DNA of 21,925 bases from a virus. The notes under the pieces were generated by a model. The model did not search any database. It had not been told where the DNA came from and saw only the letters and a program-made list of their open reading frames with translations. The DNA is taken from the IMG/VR virus record IMGVR_UViG_3300017769_000151, positions 1 to 21,925 of that record. One strand, given 5' to 3'. Position 1 is the first letter of the stretch. Each line of letters starts with the position of its first letter. Both the position numbers and the translations under genes were made by a program. Below, one piece after another: positions 7,571 through 21,925 of this stretch.

Positions 7571-8104
7571 ATGAGTAGTCCTGCAAGGAAAAAAGCCGAA
7601 GAAAAGGCAATGGAGCTTAAAAAGAAAGTAGGTAAACAACCAAAAAGAATAGTTGGTAAAACTTACGTGACTAAAGAGGGAGATACTGTATCTGATATAG
7701 CAAAGTTAATGGGTACAACTGTTTCTAAAATTAAAGCAGCCAACGCTAGATTAAAAGATGTTAATAAATTACCTAAAGGTATAAGATTAAAATTGCCTGT
7801 TACTAAAACTGCAGGTAATATTGGAACATTTGATGCAGAATCAAATCCATATAAAGAAGGTGAAAAAGTAAAACTACGTATGGGTGGCTCATTAAGACCT
7901 GTCCCTAAAGGTGGGGGAGGTAAAGGATTGTCTAAACTTCCTACTCAAGTTAGAAATAAAATGGGTTTTATGAATAAAGGGTCTCTTGCAACAAAGAAGA
8001 AAACTAAAAGCAAAGCTAAAGGTGGCAAGGGCATTATAGTTGTAAGCATAGGTGTAGGTAAAGTTAAACCTAAGAAAAAAACTAAAGCAAAAAAGAAGAC
8101 ATGA
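7571..8104 (+). CDS. LysM-domain protein
   Basis: A 177-residue basic protein. Residues about 31-77 form a LysM domain (start YVTKEGDTVSDIAKLMGTTV, then INxAN-like IKAANARL, and end LPKGIRLKLP), a fold that binds N-acetylglucosamine polymers such as peptidoglycan. No signal peptide precedes it. The C-terminal 80 residues are Lys/Gly-rich and low in complexity (KLRMGGSLRPVPKGGGGKG, KKKTKSKAKGGKG). It starts one base after the previous stop and overlaps the next gene by 4 nt (ATGA). A role at the cell wall, either in virion attachment or to position a lytic factor, is inferred from the domain. Confidence 0.8.
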   Translation: MSSPARKKAEEKAMELKKKVGKQPKRIVGKTYVTKEGDTVSDIAKLMGTTVSKIKAANARLKDVNKLPKGIRLKLPVTKTAGNIGTFDAESNPYKEGEKVKLRMGGSLRPVPKGGGGKGLSKLPTQVRNKMGFMNKGSLATKKKTKSKAKGGKGIIVVSIGVGKVKPKKKTKAKKKT

Positions 8105-8376: not shown

Positions 8377-8547
8377 ATGCCGATGCATGGTAAAAAGAAA
8401 TCAAAGATGATGAACAAAGGTGGTGCTACCAAGAAGTCTAAAATGATGAATAAAGGTGGAGCTATGAAAAAAACAAAGTATATGGCTAAAGGTGGCATGA
8501 AAAAGACTATGGGTTATGCCCGAGGTGGAGCAGCTAGACGTAAGTAA
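8377..8547 (+). CDS. Lys/Gly/Met repeat miniprotein (56 aa)
   Basis: A 56-residue, highly basic protein made of near-repeats: KSKMMNKGGATK, then KSKMMNKGGAMK, then KTKYMAKGGMK, then MGYARGGAARRK at the end. There are no acidic residues. The ATG at 8377 has a strong GAAGGAG with a 9-nt spacer, and the TAA overlaps the next ATG as TAATG. The C-terminal GG(A/L)-x-RK ending recurs in the 1164-residue protein (MKRGGLASRK). Such Lys-Gly-Gly repeats might coat DNA or tether to the capsid interior. The role is unknown. Confidence 0.75.
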   Translation: MPMHGKKKSKMMNKGGATKKSKMMNKGGAMKKTKYMAKGGMKKTMGYARGGAARRK

Positions 8548-9257
8548 TGTCCTACCTCATTAGTAACATCCCACACTTCAAGTGTTGGGTGCGAAGAGAG
8601 TTCACTTGTAATCACCAACAATATCATGGTGAGTTCCTTCATGCGTTAGCTTTTGCAGTCAATACCATACCCGATAGGTCATTGAGCTTCCAAGTTGTAT
8701 TCACAGGTTGTACAGAAGATGAGAATGTACATGGTGGTGCAATGTGGGCAAGAATGCCAATACAGGCACTTGTAGCAGATATACCTGTAGATGAATGGGC
8801 AGAACCAATGGAAGACCATATATGTCAACCTTGGGATTGTGAAGCTAGAAACCATAGTGTCATTGTCATGGATAGAGTCAGTTCTTCCCCTTGGCTCTGT
8901 AAAATAGACAATGCATTTTATACTGCGAAGTATTTATTCACAGTAGATTATACCGATAGCGAAATAGCAGATGACCCTGCACAACACAAACAATCACACG
9001 TGATGTATTTGTTAGATGCAGGTGAGTGGACAGGTAACATTGTAGCATTACCAAATAACAGGGTAAGAGCAACAAGTCCTGCATTATGGGTTACAGGAGA
9101 AGGTGCTCCTGACTTTGCTCCTTCACAGTGGTTACACTCTGCAGAAGCACATGAGTCTTACCTAGACCCCTTTACAACATTTAACAATCTATACGAGGAC
9201 AGAAGTGGCAGTAAAAAAAGCAAAAGCAACAATAAAAAAAGTAGCAGGAAAACTTAA
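8547..9257 (+). CDS. Conserved hypothetical phage protein (236 aa)
   Basis: A 236-residue protein with a rich Trp/His/Cys content. Segments that look conserved are WVRREFTCNHQQYHGEFLHA (14-33), ENVHGGAMWARMPIQALVAD (about 59-78) and a C-terminal low-complexity tail of Ser, Lys and Asn. The pattern is mainly beta with no membrane span. I recall similar proteins in marine phage genomes without an assigned function. It could be structural, given its place in the late block. The start overlaps the repeat miniprotein, and its tail overlaps the next gene by 53 nt. Confidence 0.75.
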   Translation: MSYLISNIPHFKCWVRREFTCNHQQYHGEFLHALAFAVNTIPDRSLSFQVVFTGCTEDENVHGGAMWARMPIQALVADIPVDEWAEPMEDHICQPWDCEARNHSVIVMDRVSSSPWLCKIDNAFYTAKYLFTVDYTDSEIADDPAQHKQSHVMYLLDAGEWTGNIVALPNNRVRATSPALWVTGEGAPDFAPSQWLHSAEAHESYLDPFTTFNNLYEDRSGSKKSKSNNKKSSRKT

Positions 9258-10068: not shown

Positions 10069-10508
10069 TGTTAGCAGAACTCGCAGCAGCAAACGCAGCT
10101 TTTAGTGTTATTAAAAGTTTTGTATCCAACGGAAAAGAATTAACAGGGTGTGCTAAACATATATCCGATTTTGTATTTTCAAAAGAGCAGTTAGAAAAGA
10201 AAGCGAAGAAACAAAAATCTAAAGGTGGTGGTTCAGACCTAGAAGAGTTCATGGCTCTTGAGCAGATAAAAGAAAAAGAAGCAGAACTCAAGAAGATGAT
10301 GATATACATAGGTAGACCCGGATTATGGCAGGATTGGCAAGAGTTCCAAGCAGAGGCTAGAAAGTCTAGACGTTATCAAGAAAAGATGAAAGAGAGAAGA
10401 CAAGCAGAGTTGATGGAATATTTTGGTTATGGTATAGCTTTTATATTCGTACTATTCTTTGCGGGATTACTAGCTTGGATTGTCGGCAAATGGACAGGGA
10501 AACTTTAA
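10068..10508 (+). CDS. Charged protein with C-terminal membrane anchor (146 aa)
   Basis: A 146-residue protein. An Ala-rich, mildly hydrophobic start (MLAELAAANAAFSVIKSFV) leads into a Lys/Glu-rich, largely helical middle (residues 40-115) with WQDWQEFQAEAR, and then a clear membrane span at about 120-140 (YGIAFIFVLFFAGLLAWIVG). With the anchor at the C-terminus, most of the protein should lie on one side of the membrane. It lies two genes before the holin, so a role in lysis control or virion injection is possible. I recognise similar proteins in marine phages but no function. AAGGA precedes the ATG. Confidence 0.75.
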   Translation: MLAELAAANAAFSVIKSFVSNGKELTGCAKHISDFVFSKEQLEKKAKKQKSKGGGSDLEEFMALEQIKEKEAELKKMMIYIGRPGLWQDWQEFQAEARKSRRYQEKMKERRQAELMEYFGYGIAFIFVLFFAGLLAWIVGKWTGKL

Positions 10509-10861
10509 CACCTTGCATAGGTATATGCACATTAAAGAATGATGTATGCATAGGATGCAATAGAACAATAGAAGAAATTAAAGAGGCATATGAAAATAGC
10601 ATGGCATTAAAAAAATCACAGAGGTCATTAGTTGCGTGGGGAAAACAAAAATGGAGAACCAAATCAGGTAAACCTTCTACACAAGGGAGTAAGGCAACTG
10701 GTGAACGTTATCTACCTGAAAAAGCGATTAAGGCTTTATCTGACAGTGAATATGCCTCCTCTACGGCTGCTAAACGAAAAGCGACTAAGCGAGGTAAACA
10801 ATTTTCTAAACAATCCTCTAAGACGGCAAAAAAAACATCAAGATTTCGTAGATTCAGCTAA
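10490..10861 (+). CDS. DUF1289 cysteine motif fused to basic TGERYLPEKA domain (123 aa)
   Basis: A 123-residue two-part protein. Residues 8-35 hold a DUF1289 motif: C9-x3-C13-x6-C20-x2-C23 in PCIGICTL and VCIGCNRTIEEI, a likely Zn or Fe-S binding knuckle common in Proteobacteria. Residues about 50-123 form a basic domain (KWRTKSGKPSTQGSKATGER, then YLPEKAIKALSDSEY), with a Lys/Arg tail, of a kind I associate with marine phage small proteins. I chose the ATG at 10490. An in-frame TTG lies five codons earlier. It overlaps the membrane-anchored gene by 19 nt. The joining of the two parts in one phage protein is unusual to me. The function is unknown. Confidence 0.75.
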   Translation: MDRETLTPCIGICTLKNDVCIGCNRTIEEIKEAYENSMALKKSQRSLVAWGKQKWRTKSGKPSTQGSKATGERYLPEKAIKALSDSEYASSTAAKRKATKRGKQFSKQSSKTAKKTSRFRRFS

Positions 10862-10908: not shown

Positions 10909-11301
10909 ATGATACAGGCACTAATAGGACCACTCGCAAATCTCGCAGGAACGTGGTTTCAAAACAAAGTAGAAAAAACAAAAGCCGATGGTCTCGCTAA
11001 AGTAGCTGAAGCAAAGGCAAGAGCAACAGTAGCAGAGAAAGTAGCAGCAGGTGAAATTGCATGGGAAGGCAAAATGGCAGATGCCACTAATGATAGCTGG
11101 AAAGATGAGTTTGCCTTAGTTGTCCTACTAACTCCTGCAATTTTAGTTTTTATTCCGGGCATGACAGAATATGTGGAACATGGATTTAGTATATTGGCAA
11201 CTTTACCAGAGTGGTATCAGTACCTCTTATATATCGCAATTAGTGCGTCATTTGGGATTAAGGGTGTCGGACAAGCAGCTAAGATGTTCAAAAAGAAGTA
11301 A
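10909..11301 (+). CDS. Holin, GTA three-transmembrane type
   Basis: A 130-residue protein that matches the GTA holin (three-helix) family. It has an amphipathic N-terminal segment (MIQALIGPLANLAGTWFQNK), a charged Ala-rich helix (30-60), then WKDEFALVVLLTPAILVFIP (about 64-83) and a second span (YQYLLYIAISASFG, about 103-116), with a Lys-rich end. The conserved WKDE and the strong span after it are typical. Holins form holes in the inner membrane at the lysis time and let the endolysin reach the wall, and the endolysin here has no signal sequence. AGGAG lies about 10 nt upstream. The 3' end overlaps the NifU-like gene. Confidence 0.85.
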   Translation: MIQALIGPLANLAGTWFQNKVEKTKADGLAKVAEAKARATVAEKVAAGEIAWEGKMADATNDSWKDEFALVVLLTPAILVFIPGMTEYVEHGFSILATLPEWYQYLLYIAISASFGIKGVGQAAKMFKKK

Positions 11302-11567
11302 TGTCTGATACAGAACAAAAGATAAATAAAATAATAGTAGAGTCTATATTACCTAGTGTTCAGATGCATGGTGGACACGTAGAGTTACAATCTTTCAAAG
11401 ATGGTATAGCAACAGTATTTTTAAGTGGTGCGTGTAGTGGATGTGCAATGTCCACACAAACATTAAAGATGGGGATAGAAAATATGTTAAAGTATTATAT
11501 ACCTGAAGTATTAGCAGTTGAGGGTATTGAAGACCCTAATTCTACAGTGAGTCCATATTACCAATGA
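11301..11567 (+). CDS. NifU-like Fe-S cluster protein
   Basis: An 88-residue protein matching the NifU C-terminal domain. It has the family helix (NKIIVESILPSVQMHGG), a beta hairpin (ELQSFKDGIATVFLSGAC) and the CSGC motif (Cys45 and Cys48) that binds a [4Fe-4S] cluster for transfer to apoproteins, followed by helix TQTLKMGIENMLK. Length and core look complete for a stand-alone domain. It overlaps the holin stop (TAATG) and precedes the endolysin promoter. Phage copies are seen as auxiliary genes and might support Fe-S enzymes during infection. Its place inside the lysis region is curious. Confidence 0.9.
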   Translation: MSDTEQKINKIIVESILPSVQMHGGHVELQSFKDGIATVFLSGACSGCAMSTQTLKMGIENMLKYYIPEVLAVEGIEDPNSTVSPYYQ

Positions 11568-12894: not shown

Positions 12895-14332
12895 AATAAA
12901 AATTGCAGATGACATAGAAGATGTTCCTATAGCAGAACAAAATGTTATCTTTAAACCAAATGAAGGACCTCAAACAGAGTTTCTTGCAGCTTCTGAAAGA
13001 GAAGTATTATATGGTGGCAGTGCAGGTGGTGGCAAAAGTTATGCCATGTTAGCAGACCCACTACGTTATATGGGTCATCCATCATTCAGTGGTTTGTTAC
13101 TGCGACATACAACAGAAGAATTAAGAGAACTTATATTTAAGTCAAAAGAATTATATCCTCAAATATGGAAGGGGATCAAGTGGTCGGAAAGAAAGATGCA
13201 ATGGGAAGCACCATCAGGTGCAAGACTATGGATGTCTTATCTAGACAGAGATGATGACGTTCTAAGATATCAAGGTTTAGCCTTTAGTTGGATAGGCTTT
13301 GATGAGCTAACACAATGGGCAACACCCTATTCGTGGAACTACATGAGGTCAAGACTTCGTTCTACTGCTCCTGATTTACCTGTCTATATGAGAGCAACAA
13401 CGAACCCCGGAGGTCCGGGACATCAGTGGGTCAAGAAAATGTTTATTGACCCTGCACCTTATGGAAAGACTTTTGATGCCACAAATATTGAGACAGGACA
13501 GGTTCTGCAGTATCCTAGCAACCACAAAAAAGCAGGTGAAGCACTATTTAGAAGAAGATTCATACCTGCTAGGTTATCTGATAATCCGTATCTCTCAAGT
13601 CAAGGTGATTATGAAGCAATGCTTCTATCCTTACCTGAACAACAAAAGAAGCAGTTGCTTGAGGGCGATTGGGATATTAAAGAAGGTGCTGCTTTTACTG
13701 AGTTTAATAGAGATATTCATGTTGTTGAACCTTTTTCAATTCCAAGAAATTGGGTTAAGTTTAGGTCTTGTGACTATGGTTATGGTTCTTATAGTGGTGT
13801 GTTGTGGTTTGCTGTTTCTCCAGACGAGCAGATTATTGTATATAGAGAGTTGTATGTTTCTAAAGTCCTTGCCACAGATTTGGCAGATATGATACTAGAA
13901 CTAGAAGCTGAAGATGGAACTATGAAGTATGGAGTTTTAGATAGCTCTCTTTGGCATAAACGTGGTGACACAGGTCCTTCTTTGGCAGAACAAATGATAC
14001 AAAGAGGATGTCGTTGGAGACCATCAGATAGAAGTAAAGGCAGTCGTGTAGCAGGTAAGAACGAAATACATAGACGATTGCAGATAGATGATTTTACAGA
14101 ACAACCACGAATGGTGTTTTTTAACACATGTACAAATGCTATATCACAACTACCTGCCATACCTTTAGATAAAAGAAACCCTGAAGATGTGGACACTAAG
14201 GCAGAAGATCATATTTACGATGCGTTAAGATATGGTATTATGTCAAGACCTAGATTTAGTATATTTGACTATGACCCTGTAGGTAGACCATCGCAAGGTA
14301 TGCCTATAGCAGACTCAACTTTTGGATATTAA
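12830..14332 (+). CDS. terL: Terminase large subunit
   Basis: A 500-residue DNA packaging motor with ATPase and nuclease domains. ATPase: Walker A GGSAGGGKS (62-70), Walker B AFSWIGFDEL with D158 and catalytic E159, and coupling motif RATTNPGG (188-195). Nuclease (RNase H fold): SCDYGYG with D315, VLDSSLW with D371, and a third acidic site in AEDHIYDALRYG (459-469). The N-terminal 25 residues are Lys-rich and variable. I chose ATG 12830; a longer frame opens at 12779 with no better signal. The start overlaps the helix-turn-helix gene. It pairs with the small subunit and docks on the portal to fill the capsid. Confidence 0.95.
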   Translation: MPRKQSKKRKRLKKAEQEQKPKIKIADDIEDVPIAEQNVIFKPNEGPQTEFLAASEREVLYGGSAGGGKSYAMLADPLRYMGHPSFSGLLLRHTTEELRELIFKSKELYPQIWKGIKWSERKMQWEAPSGARLWMSYLDRDDDVLRYQGLAFSWIGFDELTQWATPYSWNYMRSRLRSTAPDLPVYMRATTNPGGPGHQWVKKMFIDPAPYGKTFDATNIETGQVLQYPSNHKKAGEALFRRRFIPARLSDNPYLSSQGDYEAMLLSLPEQQKKQLLEGDWDIKEGAAFTEFNRDIHVVEPFSIPRNWVKFRSCDYGYGSYSGVLWFAVSPDEQIIVYRELYVSKVLATDLADMILELEAEDGTMKYGVLDSSLWHKRGDTGPSLAEQMIQRGCRWRPSDRSKGSRVAGKNEIHRRLQIDDFTEQPRMVFFNTCTNAISQLPAIPLDKRNPEDVDTKAEDHIYDALRYGIMSRPRFSIFDYDPVGRPSQGMPIADSTFGY

Positions 14333-14333
14333 A

Positions 14334-16487
14334 ATGGCAGAAGAAAATAATGAAATAATGATTGAAGATGATGCAATAGCATTAGAAGATACAGATGATC
14401 CTGTAATCGCTGATGCAGGTGTAAATGGCATCATACCTTTTGTTCAAGAACGATATGACAGAGCAGAAGATTACAGAAGAAATGATGAAGAACGATGGTT
14501 ACGTTCATATACAAATTACAGGGGGATATACGGAAGTGATGTTCAATTTACTGAAGCAGAAAAGTCTAGAGTATTTATCAAAGTTACCAAAACCAAAACT
14601 CTCGCAGCTTACGGACAAATTGTTGACGTATTATTTGCAGGTAACAAATTTCCTATTAGCGTTGAGCCAACGATTTTACCCGAAGGTGTACTTAAAGATG
14701 TTAGCTTTGATCCGAAAGAGCCTGAAGAGTTGCGTGGCAGGGGTCAAGAAACTTCTCCGTATGGCTTTGAAGGTGATGGACAAGATTTTCCAAAAGGTGC
14801 TACCGAAAAAAGTTTACTTGAAGGTCTTGGACCTCTTCAAGAAAAACTAGAAGGTATTGAAGGATTAAAAGGTGAAACAGGTAAAACTCCCACATCAATA
14901 ACATTTAGTCCATCTATGGTGGCTGCGAAAAATATGGAGCAAAAGATAATGGATCAGCTTCAAGAGTCAGGTGCTACTAAGCAATTAAGAAGCACTGCTT
15001 TTGAAATGTCCTTGTTTGGTACAGGGGTTATGAAGGGTCCTTTTGCTATAGATAAAGAATATCCTAATTGGGATGATGAGGGTGAATACAATCCTAAATT
15101 TAAAACAGTTCCTTCCACATCACATGTATCTGTTTGGAACTTTTATCCTGATCCTGATGCTAATAACATGGATGAAGCACAGTATGTTATTGAGAGACAC
15201 AAGATGTCTAGATCACAACTGCGTTCACTAAAAAAGAGACCTTACTTTAGATCAAGCGTTATAGATCAAGTAGTTGAGTCAGGAGAATCTTATGTTAAAA
15301 AGTATTGGGAAGATGACTTGTCTGACTACGCACCTGAACATGGTGTATATCGCTTTGAGGTATTAGAATATTGGGGTATGTGTGACACACAACTTCTAGT
15401 AGATAATGAAGTAGAGATACCTGATGAGTTAAAAGACTTTGATGAGTTACAAGCTAATATATGGATTTGCGATGGTAAATTAATAAGAATGGTTCTTAAT
15501 CCTTTCAAACCTGCAAAGATACCATATATGGCAGTTCCTTATGAGCTAAATCCGTACTCTTTCTTTGGTGTAGGTATAGCAGAAAATATGGATGACACAC
15601 AAACTTTAATGAATGGTTTTATGAGAATGGCAGTAGATAATGCAGTATTATCAGGAAACCTGCTCATAGAAGTAGATGAAACTAATTTAGTTCCGGGACA
15701 AGACTTATCTGTGTATCCGGGTAAAGTGTTTAGAAGACAGGGTGGTGCTCCGGGACAGGCTATATTTGGCACTAAGTTCCCAAACGTATCAAATGAAAAC
15801 ATACAGTTATTTGATAAAGCTAGACAATTAGCAGATGAAAGTACAGGATTACCATCATTTGCTCATGGTCAAACAGGAGTGACAGGGGTGGGTAGAACTG
15901 CTTCAGGTATATCAATGCTTATGAATGCAGCTTCAGGAAGCATTAAGACTGTTATAAAAAATGTAGATGACTATTTACTGCGACCATTAGCAGAGGGTTT
16001 CTTTAGATTTAATATGCAGTTTGACTTTAGTCCTGAAATAAAAGGGGACTTAGAAGTTAAAGCTAGAGGCACAGAAAGTCTAATGGCAAACGAAGTTAGG
16101 TCACAGAGATTGATGCAATTCTTGCAAGTATCATCTAATCCTGCATTAGCACCTTTTGCAAAGTTTCAGTATATCATACGTGAGATAGCAAAATCTATGG
16201 ACTTAGACCCTGATAAAGTTACCAACAATATGGATGAGGCAGCAATTCAGGCAGAGCTTATGAAAGAATTTCAAGCTCCTGCACCTGAAGGACAACCTCA
16301 ACAACCACCTGCAGGAGCAGACCCAAGTGATCCTACAGGAGCAGGTGGAGCAACTATAGGAACAGGTCAAGCACCTATTCCGGGTGAACAAGGATTTACA
16401 GGAGTACCTCAAGATAGTGGACAAGCAAATACTCAACAAGCTCAAGCCGATGGTGGGCAACAACCACCAATGGGAGGCATTCAGTAA
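14334..16487 (+). CDS. Portal protein
   Basis: A 717-residue portal, the dodecameric ring through which DNA enters and leaves the capsid and on which the terminase docks. Recognisable parts are the N-terminal helix-rich region (FVQERYDRAEDYRRNDEERW, about 34-53), the clip or wing strand region (RFEVLEYWGMCDTQL), NPFKPAKIPYMAVPYELNPY and FFGVGIAENMDDTQTLMNGF, and a stem-like segment (GVGRTASGISMLMNAASGSI). The C-terminal 80 residues are Gln/Pro/Gly-rich and probably disordered. It fits a long portal of the podovirus or marine-phage kind. ATG 14334 follows the terminase stop by one base. Its 3' end overlaps the next small gene. Confidence 0.92.
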   Translation: MAEENNEIMIEDDAIALEDTDDPVIADAGVNGIIPFVQERYDRAEDYRRNDEERWLRSYTNYRGIYGSDVQFTEAEKSRVFIKVTKTKTLAAYGQIVDVLFAGNKFPISVEPTILPEGVLKDVSFDPKEPEELRGRGQETSPYGFEGDGQDFPKGATEKSLLEGLGPLQEKLEGIEGLKGETGKTPTSITFSPSMVAAKNMEQKIMDQLQESGATKQLRSTAFEMSLFGTGVMKGPFAIDKEYPNWDDEGEYNPKFKTVPSTSHVSVWNFYPDPDANNMDEAQYVIERHKMSRSQLRSLKKRPYFRSSVIDQVVESGESYVKKYWEDDLSDYAPEHGVYRFEVLEYWGMCDTQLLVDNEVEIPDELKDFDELQANIWICDGKLIRMVLNPFKPAKIPYMAVPYELNPYSFFGVGIAENMDDTQTLMNGFMRMAVDNAVLSGNLLIEVDETNLVPGQDLSVYPGKVFRRQGGAPGQAIFGTKFPNVSNENIQLFDKARQLADESTGLPSFAHGQTGVTGVGRTASGISMLMNAASGSIKTVIKNVDDYLLRPLAEGFFRFNMQFDFSPEIKGDLEVKARGTESLMANEVRSQRLMQFLQVSSNPALAPFAKFQYIIREIAKSMDLDPDKVTNNMDEAAIQAELMKEFQAPAPEGQPQQPPAGADPSDPTGAGGATIGTGQAPIPGEQGFTGVPQDSGQANTQQAQADGGQQPPMGGIQ

Positions 16488-16632
16488 TTATGTTGATGCT
16501 CTAGTTGGGCAACATCATAAAATATTAGAACAAGCAGATAATGATATTATCATGTATCGTTCTCAAGGTGCAGTAGCATCTTTGAAGAAACTTAAATTAC
16601 TTAGGGATGAAGTTTTAAAGAATGTCAGTTGA
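16450..16632 (+). CDS. Small helical protein after portal (60 aa)
   Basis: A 60-residue helical protein (HQWEAFSNYVDALVGQHHKI, then ILEQADNDIIMYRSQGAVA and LKKLKLLRDEVLKNV) overlapping the portal 3' end by 38 nt in another frame and the next gene by 11 nt. The heptad-rich composition suggests a coiled coil or helical hairpin. I believe small proteins of this type follow the portal in marine phages, but the role is unknown. I chose ATG 16450, as it starts the region that looks globular; the frame can extend to 16384. No clear ribosome binding site, so expression would rely on coupling. Confidence 0.6.
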   Translation: MVGNNHQWEAFSNYVDALVGQHHKILEQADNDIIMYRSQGAVASLKKLKLLRDEVLKNVS

Positions 16633-19600
16633 AACTAGAAGAAAAGAAAGAGAGCCTAAAACGGAGACTGAAAAGGCTCTGATGGCTCAAAAGACAAAAG
16701 AAGGTTTACAGGGTTTAGCAATAGGTCCTGTAACAGGTCTTCTTGGTCTACCTTCTGATATAATAGATTTAGCAAACATGGCAAACGATGCTATAGCTAA
16801 ATATGGTGCAGATACAACTATCGCACAATTCTCAAAGTTAATAAAGCCACAGTTAGATGCAGTGCAAGAAAAGTATGGTAGAGATGCTTTTGATAAAGGA
16901 TTCACAGAATTAACAGGTATAAAATCTGATCCAACTAGACCTGCACAGTTTTTAGGTGAATTAGTATCTTTAGGGGGTGTAGCTAAAACAGGTGTAAAAG
17001 GTGCTAAACTAGTTGGTGAAACTATATCCGATACCTACAAAGGTGCTAAAAAGTTATTTGAAGATTCTACTCTGCCACCACCTGATAATTTAGCAGCACA
17101 AACTGTAGGTGCAACCAAACCTGTAGATCAACTTGAGCAAACAAAAAAACTGTTAGATAAAGAAAAAGCAATAACTACAGAAGCACCTAATATTATACCA
17201 CCTGACGAATTTATAAATGCTCCTAAAACAACTAGAATGAGCATGGCAGGAAATAGAACTCCTACAGGTAAGCAACAGATTACAAAGTATAGGGAGTTAG
17301 ATAAAACAAAAAAATATAATCCTGATGAACTATTTGAAATGACAGGTGTGTATAAAGGATCAGATGGTGAGTTTAGATGGGAAATAGATACTACAGATGC
17401 AGAGTTAAAAGGTCTTAATATAATAAAAAATGCAAAAGATGGAGATGCTGTAGCTCTTTCTAGTATATTAAAGTTTGACAGATTATATCAAGAATATTTT
17501 GAGCCTTTAAAAGTTAGAAAATTATTATCTAGATATAACTATAAACCTATGAAAAATGTATCTGTTGTACTACGAAAAGGGACAGATGAAGATGGAAGGG
17601 CATTAGCTGCTTACACTCCATCTAGTGATGTGATAACTTTATACACAGACAGAATATATAATGCTACACTTGATGCTGCAAATAAGGCTCAAGATTTTAA
17701 AAATATAGATAAACTATACGAGTATCAACTAGAAAGCACGTTACTTCACGAAATACAACATGCTATTCAAGGAAGAGAAGGATTTACAAGAGGTAGTGCT
17801 ACACAAAATTTTATACGTTCTGGTTATGAACAAGATATAAAAACTAATAATGAATTATTGGATCAGTCTTACTTTCGGTTTTTTAATGAATTTGAATCTG
17901 AAAATGCATTAACAGGTTTATCAGGTAGAGATAGATTAGATAAAGTATCTAACTATGTTAAACTAGCATTTGAAGAAAATCCTAACCTTAGTGATGGTGC
18001 TATAAATTCTATAATTAAAGCAGAGATTAGAAACTTAGATAGAGCAGGTGTAGGTTTATCAAGCGTAAAAAAAGAGCAAGTTCTTAGGTCTTACTTTTCA
18101 AATATTCAACGTCATTATAAAAACAAAAAAATATTAGATGATGAATATGACACTGCTTATAAAAGCTACAGAGATGTATATGGCGAAAAAGAGGCGAATC
18201 TTGTACAAAAAAGATTTGAGGAAAGGCGTAATTTAAGAGCATTAATGTCTATGGATACAGGACAAGCAACAAAGTCTGACATAGAAAAAGTGCAAAAAGA
18301 AATGCGTCAAAAATCACCCCCGTCTGACATGATGGGATTGACTCGTTCAGAACGAGAAAGACAAGATGTTTTAGCAAGAACTGACCCCATAACAGGTAAG
18401 GTTAAGCGTAAAGTATCTATAAAAAATTTAGCAAAAGGTGGAGACATGAAAAAACAAATGGACTTATTTCAAGAAGGTGGACTCAAAGATGAAGGTGGTA
18501 CAGTAGACCCTGTATCAGGAAACGATGTTCCACCGGGTTCTACACAAGAAGAAGTGAGAGATGACATACCTGCACAGTTAAGTGAAGGAGAGTTCGTGTT
18601 TCCTGCAGACGTAGTGAGATTCATAGGTCTTGAAAAGTTGATGACGTTAAGACAGGAAGCTAAAGCAGGACTCAAGCGTATGGAAGAGATGGGTCAGATG
18701 GGTAACAGTGATGAAGCCACCTTACCTGATGACATGCCTTTTACTATAGATGACCTTGACATGGAAGACGAACAGGAGTATAATCAAGGTGGAGTTGTAC
18801 GGGCACAAGCAGGAACATTTGTAGCTCCGGGAGCAGGTATAACGACAACACCTTCTCAGTTTACAGGACAAGCATTACCATCTGCAACGAATATACCTAA
18901 TTATGTAGCACCTAACATACCACCCCCTGCACCTGCACCTCTAGGTGGGTTCAGACCTTTAACAACATCTGCACAAACAGGGCAACAGAATATGGGAACA
19001 ACACCTACCTTTCAGACATTGATAGGCAGAAGACCCGGACAGTATGACGAATTTCGTGAATATGTTAACGAAGCAGGTATGAAGCTACAGATACCATTCA
19101 AAGATGGACAACCTATATATCCAATACCTGAAGGTTATACCTTTGTAGACCCTGAAGAAGAAAAAGTGGTAGACCCTAAAGTTACAGATGTAAAACCACA
19201 AACAACTAGAGTTACAGAAGAAAGTGGCGATGATGGTGGAGATGGAAGTAAAACATCTGCAGTTGATTTAACAGGTGCTCCTCTATCTTACAAATCTATA
19301 TTTGATATGGATAAACTAGATACTGCATTAAAGGACATTGCCTTTGGACAGTTGAACCTATTTGATTTAAAAGGTGCAACTATGAGAGGTATAACAGGTA
19401 ATGTAGATATTAATAATGTGACACTAGAGTTTCAAAAAGAGGTTATGGGTAAATTTAAAGATAATCTGGTGAATAAATACGGACAAAATTTTAATTTAGC
19501 TAGTATGAATGATATTGAAAGAAATAGTTTAGCAGAATCTCTTAATAAATCATCTGACATGGTTAAAAACGTATTAACAGATTCAAATGATAATCCTCTA

Positions 19601-20116
19601 AATACGGATGACCTTATTAGCAAAGCTAACAGAACATATGGTATGAGTGTAGTTAAAGCTAACTTAATGGCTAAAGGAACTAATGTATTGTCAAGATCAA
19701 AGATTACACAACTAGCAAAAGATATGATGACAAAAGATATGGAGATGAAAGAGAGATCGGCTAAAGCAAGACAAGCGTTTGAAGATTATTCTGACAGTTC
19801 ATCTGATTCTGGAGTTACTCAAGATTTGTCAGATGTTGTATCTGATAGAGATAAAGCACAAGCTGCTGCAGAAGCAGGATTTAATGTTGATGAAACTTTT
19901 GGTGGTGGATCAGCACCTTCTTCTCCTAACTTTAGTAATGTATCGGATGATTCAGGAGGAAGTGAACCTGATAGTGGAGGAGGTTATGGCTCAGATGACT
20001 CTGGAACTATGGGAGGTGAAGAGGTCGCTAAAGGTTCTCTTATAACTAAACGCAAAACATCAGGTAAATTAAAGAAAAAGTATATGAAGCGAGGTGGATT
20101 AGCTTCACGTAAATAA
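16622..20116 (+). CDS. Large internal or structural protein with HExxH zinc-peptidase domain (1164 aa)
   Basis: An 1164-residue multi-part protein. Part 1 (1-150): a helical start and a Gly/Ala-rich stretch (GLQGLAIGPVTGLLGLPSDI) that may contact membranes. Part 2 (about 230-400): a zincin-like domain with HEIQH at 376-380 (Zn ligands H376 and H380, catalytic E377), preceded by a WEIDTTDAELKG segment and followed by REGF, as in polyvalent phage proteins that carry a peptidase. Part 3 (about 605-715): GGLKDEGGTVDPVSGND and SEGEFVFPADVVRFIGLEKL, a segment I know from marine phage structural proteins. Part 4: Pro/Gly/Gln-rich, EYVNEAGMKLQIPFKDGQP near residue 816, a helical region, a Ser/Asp/Gly-rich tail, and MKRGGLASRK at the end. 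It lies between portal and scaffold. It may be an ejected internal virion protein whose peptidase acts on host or phage proteins (inference). Confidence 0.85.
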   Translation: MSVETRRKEREPKTETEKALMAQKTKEGLQGLAIGPVTGLLGLPSDIIDLANMANDAIAKYGADTTIAQFSKLIKPQLDAVQEKYGRDAFDKGFTELTGIKSDPTRPAQFLGELVSLGGVAKTGVKGAKLVGETISDTYKGAKKLFEDSTLPPPDNLAAQTVGATKPVDQLEQTKKLLDKEKAITTEAPNIIPPDEFINAPKTTRMSMAGNRTPTGKQQITKYRELDKTKKYNPDELFEMTGVYKGSDGEFRWEIDTTDAELKGLNIIKNAKDGDAVALSSILKFDRLYQEYFEPLKVRKLLSRYNYKPMKNVSVVLRKGTDEDGRALAAYTPSSDVITLYTDRIYNATLDAANKAQDFKNIDKLYEYQLESTLLHEIQHAIQGREGFTRGSATQNFIRSGYEQDIKTNNELLDQSYFRFFNEFESENALTGLSGRDRLDKVSNYVKLAFEENPNLSDGAINSIIKAEIRNLDRAGVGLSSVKKEQVLRSYFSNIQRHYKNKKILDDEYDTAYKSYRDVYGEKEANLVQKRFEERRNLRALMSMDTGQATKSDIEKVQKEMRQKSPPSDMMGLTRSERERQDVLARTDPITGKVKRKVSIKNLAKGGDMKKQMDLFQEGGLKDEGGTVDPVSGNDVPPGSTQEEVRDDIPAQLSEGEFVFPADVVRFIGLEKLMTLRQEAKAGLKRMEEMGQMGNSDEATLPDDMPFTIDDLDMEDEQEYNQGGVVRAQAGTFVAPGAGITTTPSQFTGQALPSATNIPNYVAPNIPPPAPAPLGGFRPLTTSAQTGQQNMGTTPTFQTLIGRRPGQYDEFREYVNEAGMKLQIPFKDGQPIYPIPEGYTFVDPEEEKVVDPKVTDVKPQTTRVTEESGDDGGDGSKTSAVDLTGAPLSYKSIFDMDKLDTALKDIAFGQLNLFDLKGATMRGITGNVDINNVTLEFQKEVMGKFKDNLVNKYGQNFNLASMNDIERNSLAESLNKSSDMVKNVLTDSNDNPLNTDDLISKANRTYGMSVVKANLMAKGTNVLSRSKITQLAKDMMTKDMEMKERSAKARQAFEDYSDSSSDSGVTQDLSDVVSDRDKAQAAAEAGFNVDETFGGGSAPSSPNFSNVSDDSGGSEPDSGGGYGSDDSGTMGGEEVAKGSLITKRKTSGKLKKKYMKRGGLASRK

Positions 20117-20175: not shown

Positions 20176-21063
20176 ATGGCAGAACAAGCACAAGAAATGG
20201 TGGTAGATGCTACACCAAATAAAAAAGCATTTATGGAAAAGCGTTCTACTCATGAAGATAGAATTAAAAAAGATGAGCAGGAGCTTGAAGAACTAAAGAA
20301 ACAAGTTGAAGGTGAAGCTGAAGAACCTGTTACAGAAGAGAAAGCAGAGGATGAGGAAAAACCGAAGAACGCTGAAGAAAGAACTTTCAAAAAGCGTTAC
20401 GGAGACCTACGTAGACACTCTCAAGAAAAAGAAAGAGAGTTCCAAAAACAACTTGACGAGTTAAAAGGGCAACTAGAAAAGGCAACTAAGAAAGAGATAA
20501 AGTTACCTAAGACAGAAGCCGAGATAGAAAATTGGACAAAAGAATATCCTGATGTAGCAGGAATAGTAGAAACAATCGCTATCAAGAAAGCAAAAGAACA
20601 ATCTGATGCTTTAGAAAAAAGAATCAAAGAGATTGATGAATTAAATGCAAGAACTACAAAGGAACGTGCAGAAGTAGAATTACTGAAGATACATCCTGAT
20701 TTTGCAGATATAAGAGATAGTGATGACTTTCACGAATGGGCAGACGAACAACCGAAATGGGTACAAGAGGCACTTTATGAAAACGACAACGATGCAAGAT
20801 CAGCAGCTAGAGCTATTGATCTATATAAATCAGATAGAGGCATTGGCAAGAAAGACACGAAAAAGAGTAGTAAGAGTGCTGCTTCGGAAGTTAAAGCAAA
20901 AAATACTAGGTCTGTTCCTGATCCTGAAGGAAACACCAATAAGATTTTAGAGTCGGAAGTACAGAGAATGTCTGCAGATGAATACGAAAAGAATGCAGAT
21001 ACAATCATGGAATCTATCCGATCAGGTAATTTTGTCTACGATGTATCTGGTTCTGCTAGATAA
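20176..21063 (+). CDS. Capsid scaffolding protein (probable)
   Basis: A 295-residue, highly charged protein with long helical, Glu/Lys-rich stretches (DRIKKDEQELEELKKQVEGE and KEREFQKQLDELKGQLEKAT), a small folded-looking core (IHPDFADIRDSDDFHEWADE, about 177-196) and a Ser/Lys-rich end. It lies directly before the major capsid gene. Composition, size and position match phage scaffolding proteins, which line the prohead interior and leave before or during packaging. AGGAG lies 7 nt before the ATG. No protease motif is seen in it. Confidence 0.85.
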   Translation: MAEQAQEMVVDATPNKKAFMEKRSTHEDRIKKDEQELEELKKQVEGEAEEPVTEEKAEDEEKPKNAEERTFKKRYGDLRRHSQEKEREFQKQLDELKGQLEKATKKEIKLPKTEAEIENWTKEYPDVAGIVETIAIKKAKEQSDALEKRIKEIDELNARTTKERAEVELLKIHPDFADIRDSDDFHEWADEQPKWVQEALYENDNDARSAARAIDLYKSDRGIGKKDTKKSSKSAASEVKAKNTRSVPDPEGNTNKILESEVQRMSADEYEKNADTIMESIRSGNFVYDVSGSAR

Positions 21064-21285
21064 TTAGTTGACAAAGTGTTATTTATAGGTATAACTATAG
21101 GTAACTAAAAATGTGACCTCTCCACGTGGACAACTCACATACTATACTACACTTGAAAGCCTACCTGATGGTATGAGCCTATGTTTAAGTAGCTATTAAG
21201 CATACACCTCACAACTATTAGCCGATGACGAGTAAAACTGTCGTATACTTTATGTATACATTTGTTTATTTCAATGGAGATAAAA
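21064..21285 (+). other. Non-coding leader before the major capsid gene
   Basis: Over 200 nt without a gene. It carries a promoter (21068-21095), a perfect 10-bp palindrome TCCACGTGGA (21121-21130), a hairpin TACC-TGAT-GGTA just after it, and GTATAC-TTTAT-GTATAC (21243-21259), a 6-bp stem with a 5-nt loop close to the capsid start. AATGGAG provides the capsid ribosome binding site. The leader may be structured, but I match no known RNA family. Confidence 0.55.
21068..21095 (+). promoter_or_regulatory. Sigma-70-type promoter before the major capsid gene
   Basis: TTGACA (21068-21073), a 16-bp spacer and TATAAC (21090-21095). It begins 5 bp after the scaffold stop and would give the capsid gene its own transcript with a leader of about 185 nt. 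Confidence 0.7.
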
Positions 21286-21925
21286 ATGGCATTTAAAACT
21301 GCAGCAGGTTATGGTAATCTGCCTAATGGTAATTTCTCCCCAGTTATTTACTCTAAGCAGGTTCAGTTAGCCTTCAGAAAAACTTCCGTTGTTGAAAATA
21401 TCACTAACTCCGATTATTTTGGAGAGATATCCAACATGGGTGATTCTGTAAAAATTATCAAAGAGCCAGAGATCACTGTCAAGGAATATGCTAGAGGTGC
21501 AAACGTACAACCTCAAGACCTTGATGATGAGGACTTCACATTGACTATTGACAAAGCGAATTACTTTGCTTTCAAGATAGACGATATTGAAGAGGCTCAC
21601 AGTCACGTAAACTTCTCTCAACTAGCAAGTGACAGAGCAGGTTACAGACTTAAAGACAACTATGACCAAGACGTTCTTGGTTACCTATCAGGATTTGCAC
21701 AAGCATCTAACAATGCTGTAGCAAGTTCAGCTAACGCAACAGTTAATGGAACTAAAGCAGTGTCAACTGCAGGTTCAGACGAATTGTTGACAAGCATGAA
21801 GCTAAGAAAAGATAGCTTTGGTAACATCACTACTTCTAGTGCTGGTGACCACTCTATCCCAATAGCTCCAAGACTAGGTGGTGCAACTGCACAAGCAACT
21901 GCTACAGCTACTCCTTTACAGGTTA
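21286..21925 (+). CDS. Major capsid protein, N-terminal part (cut by window edge)
   Basis: An open frame of 213 codons that runs off the right edge without a stop. ATG 21286 has TGGAG 7 nt upstream. It begins MAFKTAAGYGNLPNGNFSP and continues YSKQVQLAFRKTSVVENITN, then EISNMGDSVKIIKEPEITVK. This resembles HK97-fold or P22-like coat proteins in which an N-terminal arm is followed by strand-rich VxIxxxP repeats. It lies straight after the scaffold, behind its own promoter, the standard place for the coat gene. The exact fold family is inferred, and the C-terminal half is not visible. Confidence 0.88.
   Translation, partial: MAFKTAAGYGNLPNGNFSPVIYSKQVQLAFRKTSVVENITNSDYFGEISNMGDSVKIIKEPEITVKEYARGANVQPQDLDDEDFTLTIDKANYFAFKIDDIEEAHSHVNFSQLASDRAGYRLKDNYDQDVLGYLSGFAQASNNAVASSANATVNGTKAVSTAGSDELLTSMKLRKDSFGNITTSSAGDHSIPIAPRLGGATAQATATATPLQV

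Follow-up and report, generated by a model that had tools for sequence, protein, structure and literature searches.

What is the role of a large gene which carries a metallopeptidase motif and lies between the portal gene and the scaffold-like gene of a phage? The question is raised by a virus record of 21,925 bases (IMG/VR record IMGVR_UViG_3300017769_000151), here called the window, which was analysed over its whole length and in whose positions all coordinates are given. A large open reading frame (ORF) on the + strand (16622-20116, ATG start, 1164 amino acids (aa)) contains the motif HEIQH at aa 376-380 (17747-17761, +). Our answer, given with moderate confidence, is that the ORF joins an exchangeable enzyme cassette to an internal virion protein which resembles tape measures and is probably ejected into the host. 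The cargo would be an N-terminal zincin metallopeptidase cassette (aa 1-608) and the carrier the C-terminal module (aa 609-1164; 18446-20116, +), with boundaries taken from the junction and from DNA comparisons.

The ORF, the motif and their place between the portal and the scaffold-like gene are as the original prediction had them. By composition 0.00054 HExxH motifs are expected in this protein and one is observed; it is the sole HExxH among all stop-to-stop frames of at least 60 aa on both strands of the window. To follow the domain among relatives we matched 114 zincin ORFs with a profile and kept the 77 segments with at least 60 bits and containing 'HE', which became 71 when those 92% alike were removed. 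The final alignment, A3, consists of 63 of these plus the window (L006, L059, L067, L080, L091, L099 and both pieces of L087 were left out). H376, E377 and H380 are present in all 64 sequences, a conservation which is partly built in by the HExQH search pattern and the 'HE' filter. A check free of this bias is given by 80 contigs fetched by the C-terminal module alone, in which 19 of 19 zincin ORFs keep HExxH. E522 (18185-18187, +), located in YGEKEAN and playing no part in the retrieval of sequences, is found in 60 of the 64 (the exceptions are one D, one A, one R and one gap).

Seventeen columns are invariant when the window is aligned with ten relatives, among which are proteins of the Pseudomonas phages AF, H66, F116 and 8P, the 335-aa gp3 of EBPR podovirus 3 and a 420-aa protein of ctnlZ23. 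These columns include HE-QH, a Gln three residues further on, and the Y, GE, A and R of YxxxxGExEAxxxxxR. The NG86 ratio of non-synonymous to synonymous substitution rates (dN/dS) of the domain is about 0.16-0.48 in eight of nine pairs, the ninth being saturated, and judged by these ratios the domain is under purifying selection. A Pfam scan of the ORF at E ≤ 1 reports LPD23 (PF18838) and nothing else, at aa 232-263 (17315-17410, +) and with 21.7 bits, which is below the gathering cut-off of 27 bits. Three relatives pass the cut-off (L007 with 29.8, L009 with 33.9 and L013 with 33.7 bits), so LPD23 belongs to the clade, and the window has a divergent copy of it. Phmmer found no match for the protein in the PDB, and a search of NCBIfam gave no usable match. 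When the A3 profile was compared with the PDB, a segment of it without HExxH matched herpesvirus UL31 (E 0.013), and there was a match to the IrrE structure 3dte (E 0.06); both are too weak and were not used.

AlphaFold2 run on A3 models the domain (aa 195-555; 17204-18286, +) with a mean predicted local distance difference test (pLDDT) score of 90.9 and a predicted template modelling (pTM) score of 0.84. HEIQH lies in the helix formed by model residues 168-192; another helix, at 326-351, opens with E522, the predicted third zinc ligand in YxxxxGExEA. A Foldseek search against viral predicted structures returned 14 matches at E ≤ 0.001, several of them named large polyvalent protein associated. 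A second comparison of the window model with the PDB was swamped by a long helical insert (model residues 197-325), and for this reason the compact relative L104 (261 aa, without the long insert) was modelled instead for comparison with solved structures. Its model (pLDDT 86.6) has three strands, an HExxH helix and a Glu-bearing helix (helices 76-81/83-87, strands 89-93, 98-104 and 109-115, helices 120-139 and 204-214). Structural re-ranking places IrrE/PprI at the top (Z 5.9, root mean square deviation 3.8, 93 residues), and the first 14 rows include Spartan, selecase, lethal factor, CapP and MATCAP, with an HExxH oxygenase at row 8; BlaR1 is also among the re-ranked structures. We take these neighbours to be HExxH enzymes, in part from the titles of the structures. 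The topology of L104 agrees with that described for the metallopeptidases (MPTases) of polyvalent proteins (Iyer et al., 2017; PMC5512222). As the best Z is modest, the assignment rests on topology, motif and re-ranking jointly, and these support a zincin-like predicted fold. The zincin-like domain claimed earlier is thus upheld: its His and Glu residues are conserved, and the predicted fold has a zincin core.

The polyvalent-protein zincin MPTases have an HExxH helix with a Glu on the next, a variable insert, and a multidomain setting beside virion genes (PMC5512222, LPD23 kind). The same features are seen here: HEXXH and a Glu on the second C-terminal helix (model helices 168-192 and 326-351), and two disparate domains, zincin and carrier, placed between portal and coat near the late virion genes. 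What differs is the LPD23 score below the cut-off and the placing of the domain in an N-terminal cassette that is exchanged between fixed boundaries. The cargo of the 1164-aa protein is a divergent member of this already described class, and we are highly confident in identifying the domain as a polyvalent-protein zincin metallopeptidase of the LPD23-linked kind. Homologous domains with all invariant residues occur in the giant virion-type proteins H66 gp60, F116 p60, AF gp16 and 8P_023; these are far larger (3787 aa in H66), have other domains and belong to other phage families. With IrrE/PprI (M78-like) the likeness is at the level of the fold, and those proteins are cellular regulators.

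The domain might instead be a metal-dependent oxygenase or a structural relic and no peptidase at all. The HExxH domain of an alpha-ketoglutarate oxygenase, PDB 8s5f, was re-ranked at Z 4.4, below IrrE/PprI at 5.9, and the HExxH fold as an oxygenase is discussed in the accessible part of PMC12633501. The virion RNA polymerase of N4 is packaged unprocessed despite its HExxH domain (PMC5512222). Against this reading stand also the motif kept in every zincin ORF of the unselected contigs and the purifying selection, and we hold this reading to be very unlikely. If the domain is a peptidase, H376, H380 and E522 would be the zinc ligands and E377 the general base.

The carrier was identified by its relatives. 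Homologues occupy the same position in Puniceispirillum phage HMO-2011, in eleven Roseobacter CRP phages and in the uncultured podovirus record ctYwJ313, each with the annotation 'hypothetical protein'. By its carrier half and its gene order the phage is HMO-2011-type. HMO-2011 gp49 and CRP-1 gp49 share the place after the portal and the carrier module; they differ from the window protein in having no N-terminal cargo and in starting at the junction, with MALNKQMELF and MKEQMELF against MKKQMDLF. Since the proteins of these relatives start where the carrier starts, aa 1-608 are outside the core protein. The first part of the carrier is conserved (DPVSGNDVPPGS..EEVRDDIPAQLSEGEFVFPADVVR), and its first about 150 aa are 61.8% identical to HMO-2011 gp49 and 64.8% to CRP-1 gp49. 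Over the first 150 aa of the carrier the window protein has weak matches to tape-measure PHROGs (E 0.0019 and 0.0061), and this agrees with the original prediction, which had likened segments of the protein to marine phage structural proteins. Among the members of the carrier set A2, the tape-measure family phrog_3547 is matched by nine of ten (best 1.4e-5), the tape-measure family phrog_5448 by six and, over the same 150 aa, a virion structural family by two. These profile matches suggest that the carrier is related in part to tape-measure proteins, and we call it tape-measure-like. The tail of the carrier looks modular too: at the C termini of the CRP-345 and CRP-13 proteins (L019, L029) a tract rich in Gly or Ser is joined by a CCFIMLEARYG domain that is nearly the same in both. 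A kinship with P22 was considered as well; the P22 coat family is found in 3 of 14 records and is absent from the 47-kb relative of the window, and no argument is based on it.

How variable is the N-terminal half? A survey was made of the best 80 of at least 579 relatives found by the carrier module, which gave 76 non-redundant contigs (another search kept the best 80 of at least 338). The frequencies therefore describe contigs near the window and not the whole collection, and the carrier is present in every relative by selection, as the contigs were fetched by it. Seven of the 76 have a fused zincin and 11 a separate zincin ORF between portal and carrier; 39 have an N-terminal extension without zincin (six of these run off the 5' end of their contig), 15 have an empty slot, two another separate ORF, and in two the portal is off the contig. 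Pfam at E ≤ 0.01 on 66 N-terminal extensions reports LPD23 in 16, DUF6782 (a putative metallopeptidase) in 8, Phage_L5_gp82 in 8, Phage_lysozyme2 in 6, Methyltransf_23 in 4, ART-PolyVal in 3, Hydrolase_2, DUF7178 and Phage_lysozyme in 2 each, and some single weak others; as the 66 include loci picked for zincin, these counts are not frequencies. The proteins of CRP-2 and CRP-3 start with a cell-wall hydrolase (Hydrolase_2) domain, and CRP-738 has a DUF7178 protein as a separate gene ahead of a short carrier. Two further observations concern the content of the slot. In L013 (5827-8736) and L049 (4993-8646) a weak ART-PolyVal match lies between the zincin and the carrier, possibly two effectors in one cassette. 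The extension of CRP-9 (L023) looks CHAP/NlpC-like by eye at about aa 100-250 (NWCATFVSDVL...GDHVTFYVG), and Pfam does not report it.

The edges of the slot are nearly fixed. Upstream lies the portal gene (14322-16487, +; PF23899 SU10_portal 92.7 bits, phrog_332 2e-82, phrog_1216), followed by a conserved leader of about 134 nucleotides (16488-16621, +) between the portal stop and the start codon of the large ORF, recognized by the spacing of the ATG and by a DNA identity of about 88-94% to L007, L009, L013, L037 and L038 up to about 16622; a small overlapping ORF (16384-16632) runs through it. The first ATG behind the portal is at +122, +131 or +146 in 10 of 12 loci, which form six empty/loaded pairs, and at +164 in L015 and +236 in L160; in the window it is the start codon at +135. 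In the comparison with these five loci the DNA identity of the window is about 88-97% between 16,181 and about 16,630. Past this point it drops, and over most of the cargo it is about 40-60% in L007, L009, L013 and L038; the drop is smaller in L037 (42-87%). It is back at about 18,431, to 88-99% in L007, L009 and L037 and to 77-90% in L038, at the junction KGGD-M-KKQM (18434-18460, +; the Met is 18446-18448). The DNA of L013, where the cargo is about 300 aa longer, failed to realign at the junction; the protein is identical there. The C-terminal half of the carrier diverges again ahead of the scaffold-like gene.

The cargo changes faster than its surroundings. Between the window and five relatives with a zincin the portals are 93.4-95.4% identical, and the cargo 32.5-58.4% (best BLAST segment). 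The class of the slot differs in 76 of 178 locus pairs with a portal identity of at least 85%, a set which includes loci fetched by zincin, and in 10 of the pairs one member alone has zincin. CRP-1 (L015) has an empty slot and L184 a 106-aa extension with portals 99.86% identical; L135 is empty and L148 has a 246-aa extension with portals 99.7% identical; no zincin is present in these two pairs. The limits of the cargo are a near-fixed start behind the portal and the GG...Met junction. The N-terminal module (16622-17071, +) contains a Gly-rich hydrophobic stretch, GLQGLAIGPVTGLLGLPSDIIDL, seen by eye and announced by the original prediction, and may have a membrane or pilot role; the longest Gly/Ser/Asp-rich tract of the protein is near the C terminus and not the start. 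This module varies independently, being different in L038 although the start of the zincin is alike. The linker behind it, 'PPPDNLA..T.GATKP...TKKLLDKEKA' (17069-17266, +), is partly common to otherwise divergent relatives, with a 90-nucleotide block from 17081 of 71-81% DNA identity in L007, L009 and L013, and is possibly an internal recombination point.

These data bear directly on the idea that the zincin is a prohead maturation protease which trims the scaffold or the coat, as the original prediction had considered. Its position is between the portal and a scaffold-like gene (20176-21063, +; 295 aa, phrog_13678 5.7e-63 of unknown function, named scaffold by position alone), the fixed downstream neighbour, which is followed by the major head protein (21262-21924, +; phrog_267 6.8e-32), truncated by the end of the contig. 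The S78 prohead protease (PF04586) is found in none of 14 records, in which the window is represented by a 47-kb contig (L002) with the same protein at 100%. The earlier statement that no separate prohead protease is visible thus stands for the S78 family; that one should be needed is questionable, as P22- and T7-type phages need no prohead protease. The zincin profile matched the 47-kb relative and none of the 13 GenBank relatives over their whole records, yet all 13 keep the order of portal, scaffold-like gene and coat; the slot is empty in 15 of the 76 surveyed contigs, and it is empty beside near-identical portals in the two pairs above, although neither of these bears a zincin. In the clade of the window itself the case is less direct, since the closest portals beside an empty slot are about 80-81% identical. 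A capsid protease should be present in every phage that builds the same head, and the zincin is not, which leaves capsid maturation unsupported and in our judgement extremely unlikely.

The zincin might cleave the protein of which it is part, at a place such as the GG...Met junction, and free the carrier before or after packaging. Such autoprocessing has been proposed for polyvalent zincins including DdrB of phage P1 (Iyer et al., 2017; PMC5512222), and a freed carrier would function, as a free carrier polypeptide exists in HMO-2011, in CRP-1 and in the split loci. On the other hand, 11 of the 18 zincin loci carry it as a separate ORF, and in 39 of the 46 fused loci (with the six open at the 5' end) no zincin is seen. 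Presence of the zincin is uncoupled from fusion: fused proteins do without it, and it is retained where nothing is fused. We consider autoprocessing rather unlikely.

The carrier might also be made alone by an internal ribosome start at the junction Met. All 20 fused zincin ORFs and 32 of 42 other fused ORFs have this Met in the same position, and none of 11 split ORFs starting upstream has it, a set which is one related group; elsewhere the position is I, L or V. Shine-Dalgarno-like pairing upstream is -7.3 kcal/mol at the junction against -2.3 kcal/mol at other internal Mets (63 versus 1564 Mets). When the remaining GG motifs of these ORFs serve as control, the values are -8.04 against -8.44 (53 versus 637 motifs, p 0.66), and because these pair equally well the signal is what a GG protein motif yields by itself. 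We rejected the internal start as an explanation on this ground, and keep it as a possibility. GG motifs are recurrent in these proteins; the 637 are away from the junction and often read xGG[LVI].

A further reading places the zincin at the cell envelope during entry, where it would act on peptidoglycan cross-links or a periplasmic protein and share its job with the lysozyme and hydrolase cassettes. The ten lysozyme and hydrolase matches among the 66 extensions (Phage_lysozyme2 6, Hydrolase_2 2, Phage_lysozyme 2) and the Hydrolase_2 domains of CRP-2 and CRP-3, all at the same place, speak for it. The methyltransferase, ART-like and DUF7178 cargo, likewise at this place, suggests cytoplasmic targets instead, and the structural neighbours of the zincin presumably cut proteins; we find the envelope distinctly unlikely as the site of action.

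We return to the exchangeable enzyme on a carrier, which fits because the boundaries are fixed, replacement is fast, the enzymes are mixed and the carrier is in all loci (by selection). With the cassette between the conserved leader and the GG...Met junction, enzymes would be exchanged while capsid, portal and carrier stay unchanged. The protein would most likely be packaged and enter the host along with the DNA, and in the host the peptidase would cut host proteins of defence or regulation, or free parts of the ejected polypeptide. Ejection to cleave host proteins, the other option of the original prediction, is compatible with the data and is the one we prefer, in view of indirect signs: the other cargo at the same site, the tape-measure-like carrier and H66 gp60, whose homologous domain is in a protein that a GenBank note describes as a virion part verified by mass spectrometry. 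Ejection and action on host proteins are further suggested by what is proposed for the polyvalent kind, for which PMC5512222 names self-cleavage, processing of the virion or cleavage of host targets as untested options, and by the precedent of coliphage N4. Its virion RNA polymerase gp50 is also a packaged and ejected multidomain protein with an HExxH domain, a motif which the accessible part of a 2025 N4 polymerase preprint (PMC12633501) names without an assay; N4 has a polymerase in place of the carrier, and the two are likened without sequence comparison.

It should be noted that several points weigh against this reading. The LPD23 segment of the window scores below the cut-off, and Foldseek gave no PDB match at E ≤ 0.001 for either the window domain model or the L104 model, with 5.9 as the best re-ranked Z. 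Packaging, zinc binding and catalysis are predictions, and the proteins with an HExxH fold include an oxygenase (PDB 8s5f). The tape-measure matches of the carrier are weak. Most of the 39 zincin-free extensions are without a named enzyme, so a uniformly enzymatic cargo would go beyond the evidence, and the clade of the window has no closer empty relative than those at about 80-81% portal identity. The H66 protein has 3787 aa, and packaging of the whole is no proof that the domain matters. In the open literature no virion proteomics was found for any HMO-2011-type phage.

The observations can be carried a step further, and we do so tentatively, giving the proposal somewhat less than an even chance. 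The start of the internal virion gene of HMO-2011-type phages might be an exchange site like that of polymorphic toxins. The start codon would be fixed and the internal Met retained, and cassettes of any length from 0 up to about 1,200 codons would come and go between the two. One carrier would thereby change its injected enzyme (peptidase, ADP-ribosyltransferase, methyltransferase, wall hydrolase), and translation of the carrier alone may also begin at this Met, so that one gene would yield two proteins. We found no description of such a site in the openly accessible papers, which is not proof of absence, and in the same literature no paper joining HMO-2011-type phages with polyvalent proteins; mentions of LPD23 were unrelated. 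The word 'peptidase' is absent from the accessible parts of PMC9038755 and PMC8528129, and 'polyvalent', 'ejection', 'hypervariable' and 'internal virion' from that of PMC9038755.

Some other genes of the window are recorded here as side observations. A NifU-like protein of 88 aa (11301-11567, +; PF01106 84.1 bits) is possibly a phage-carried iron-sulphur helper, and near its gene lies one for a DUF1289 protein with a Cys motif (10475-10861, +; 38.8 bits). A 236-aa protein (8547-9257, +) matches phrog_3704, which has a ferredoxin label and belongs to the auxiliary-metabolic category (3.7e-29), and has no Pfam match. A LysM-domain protein (7571-8104, +; 34.1 bits) has a basic Lys/Gly-rich tail, and the adjoining small ORFs are also very basic. 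A C-5 cytosine DNA methyltransferase is encoded on the other strand (189-1397, -; PF00145 157.7 bits).

The gene family is a natural experiment, in which close phages have the zincin fused, separate, replaced or absent, and it argues neither for a role in capsid maturation nor for a zincin needed to release itself from the carrier, but against both. In an abundant group of marine phages, enzymes are exchanged fast at a gene which is annotated as hypothetical in the isolates, and it is here that products for early host takeover or for evasion of defence may be found.

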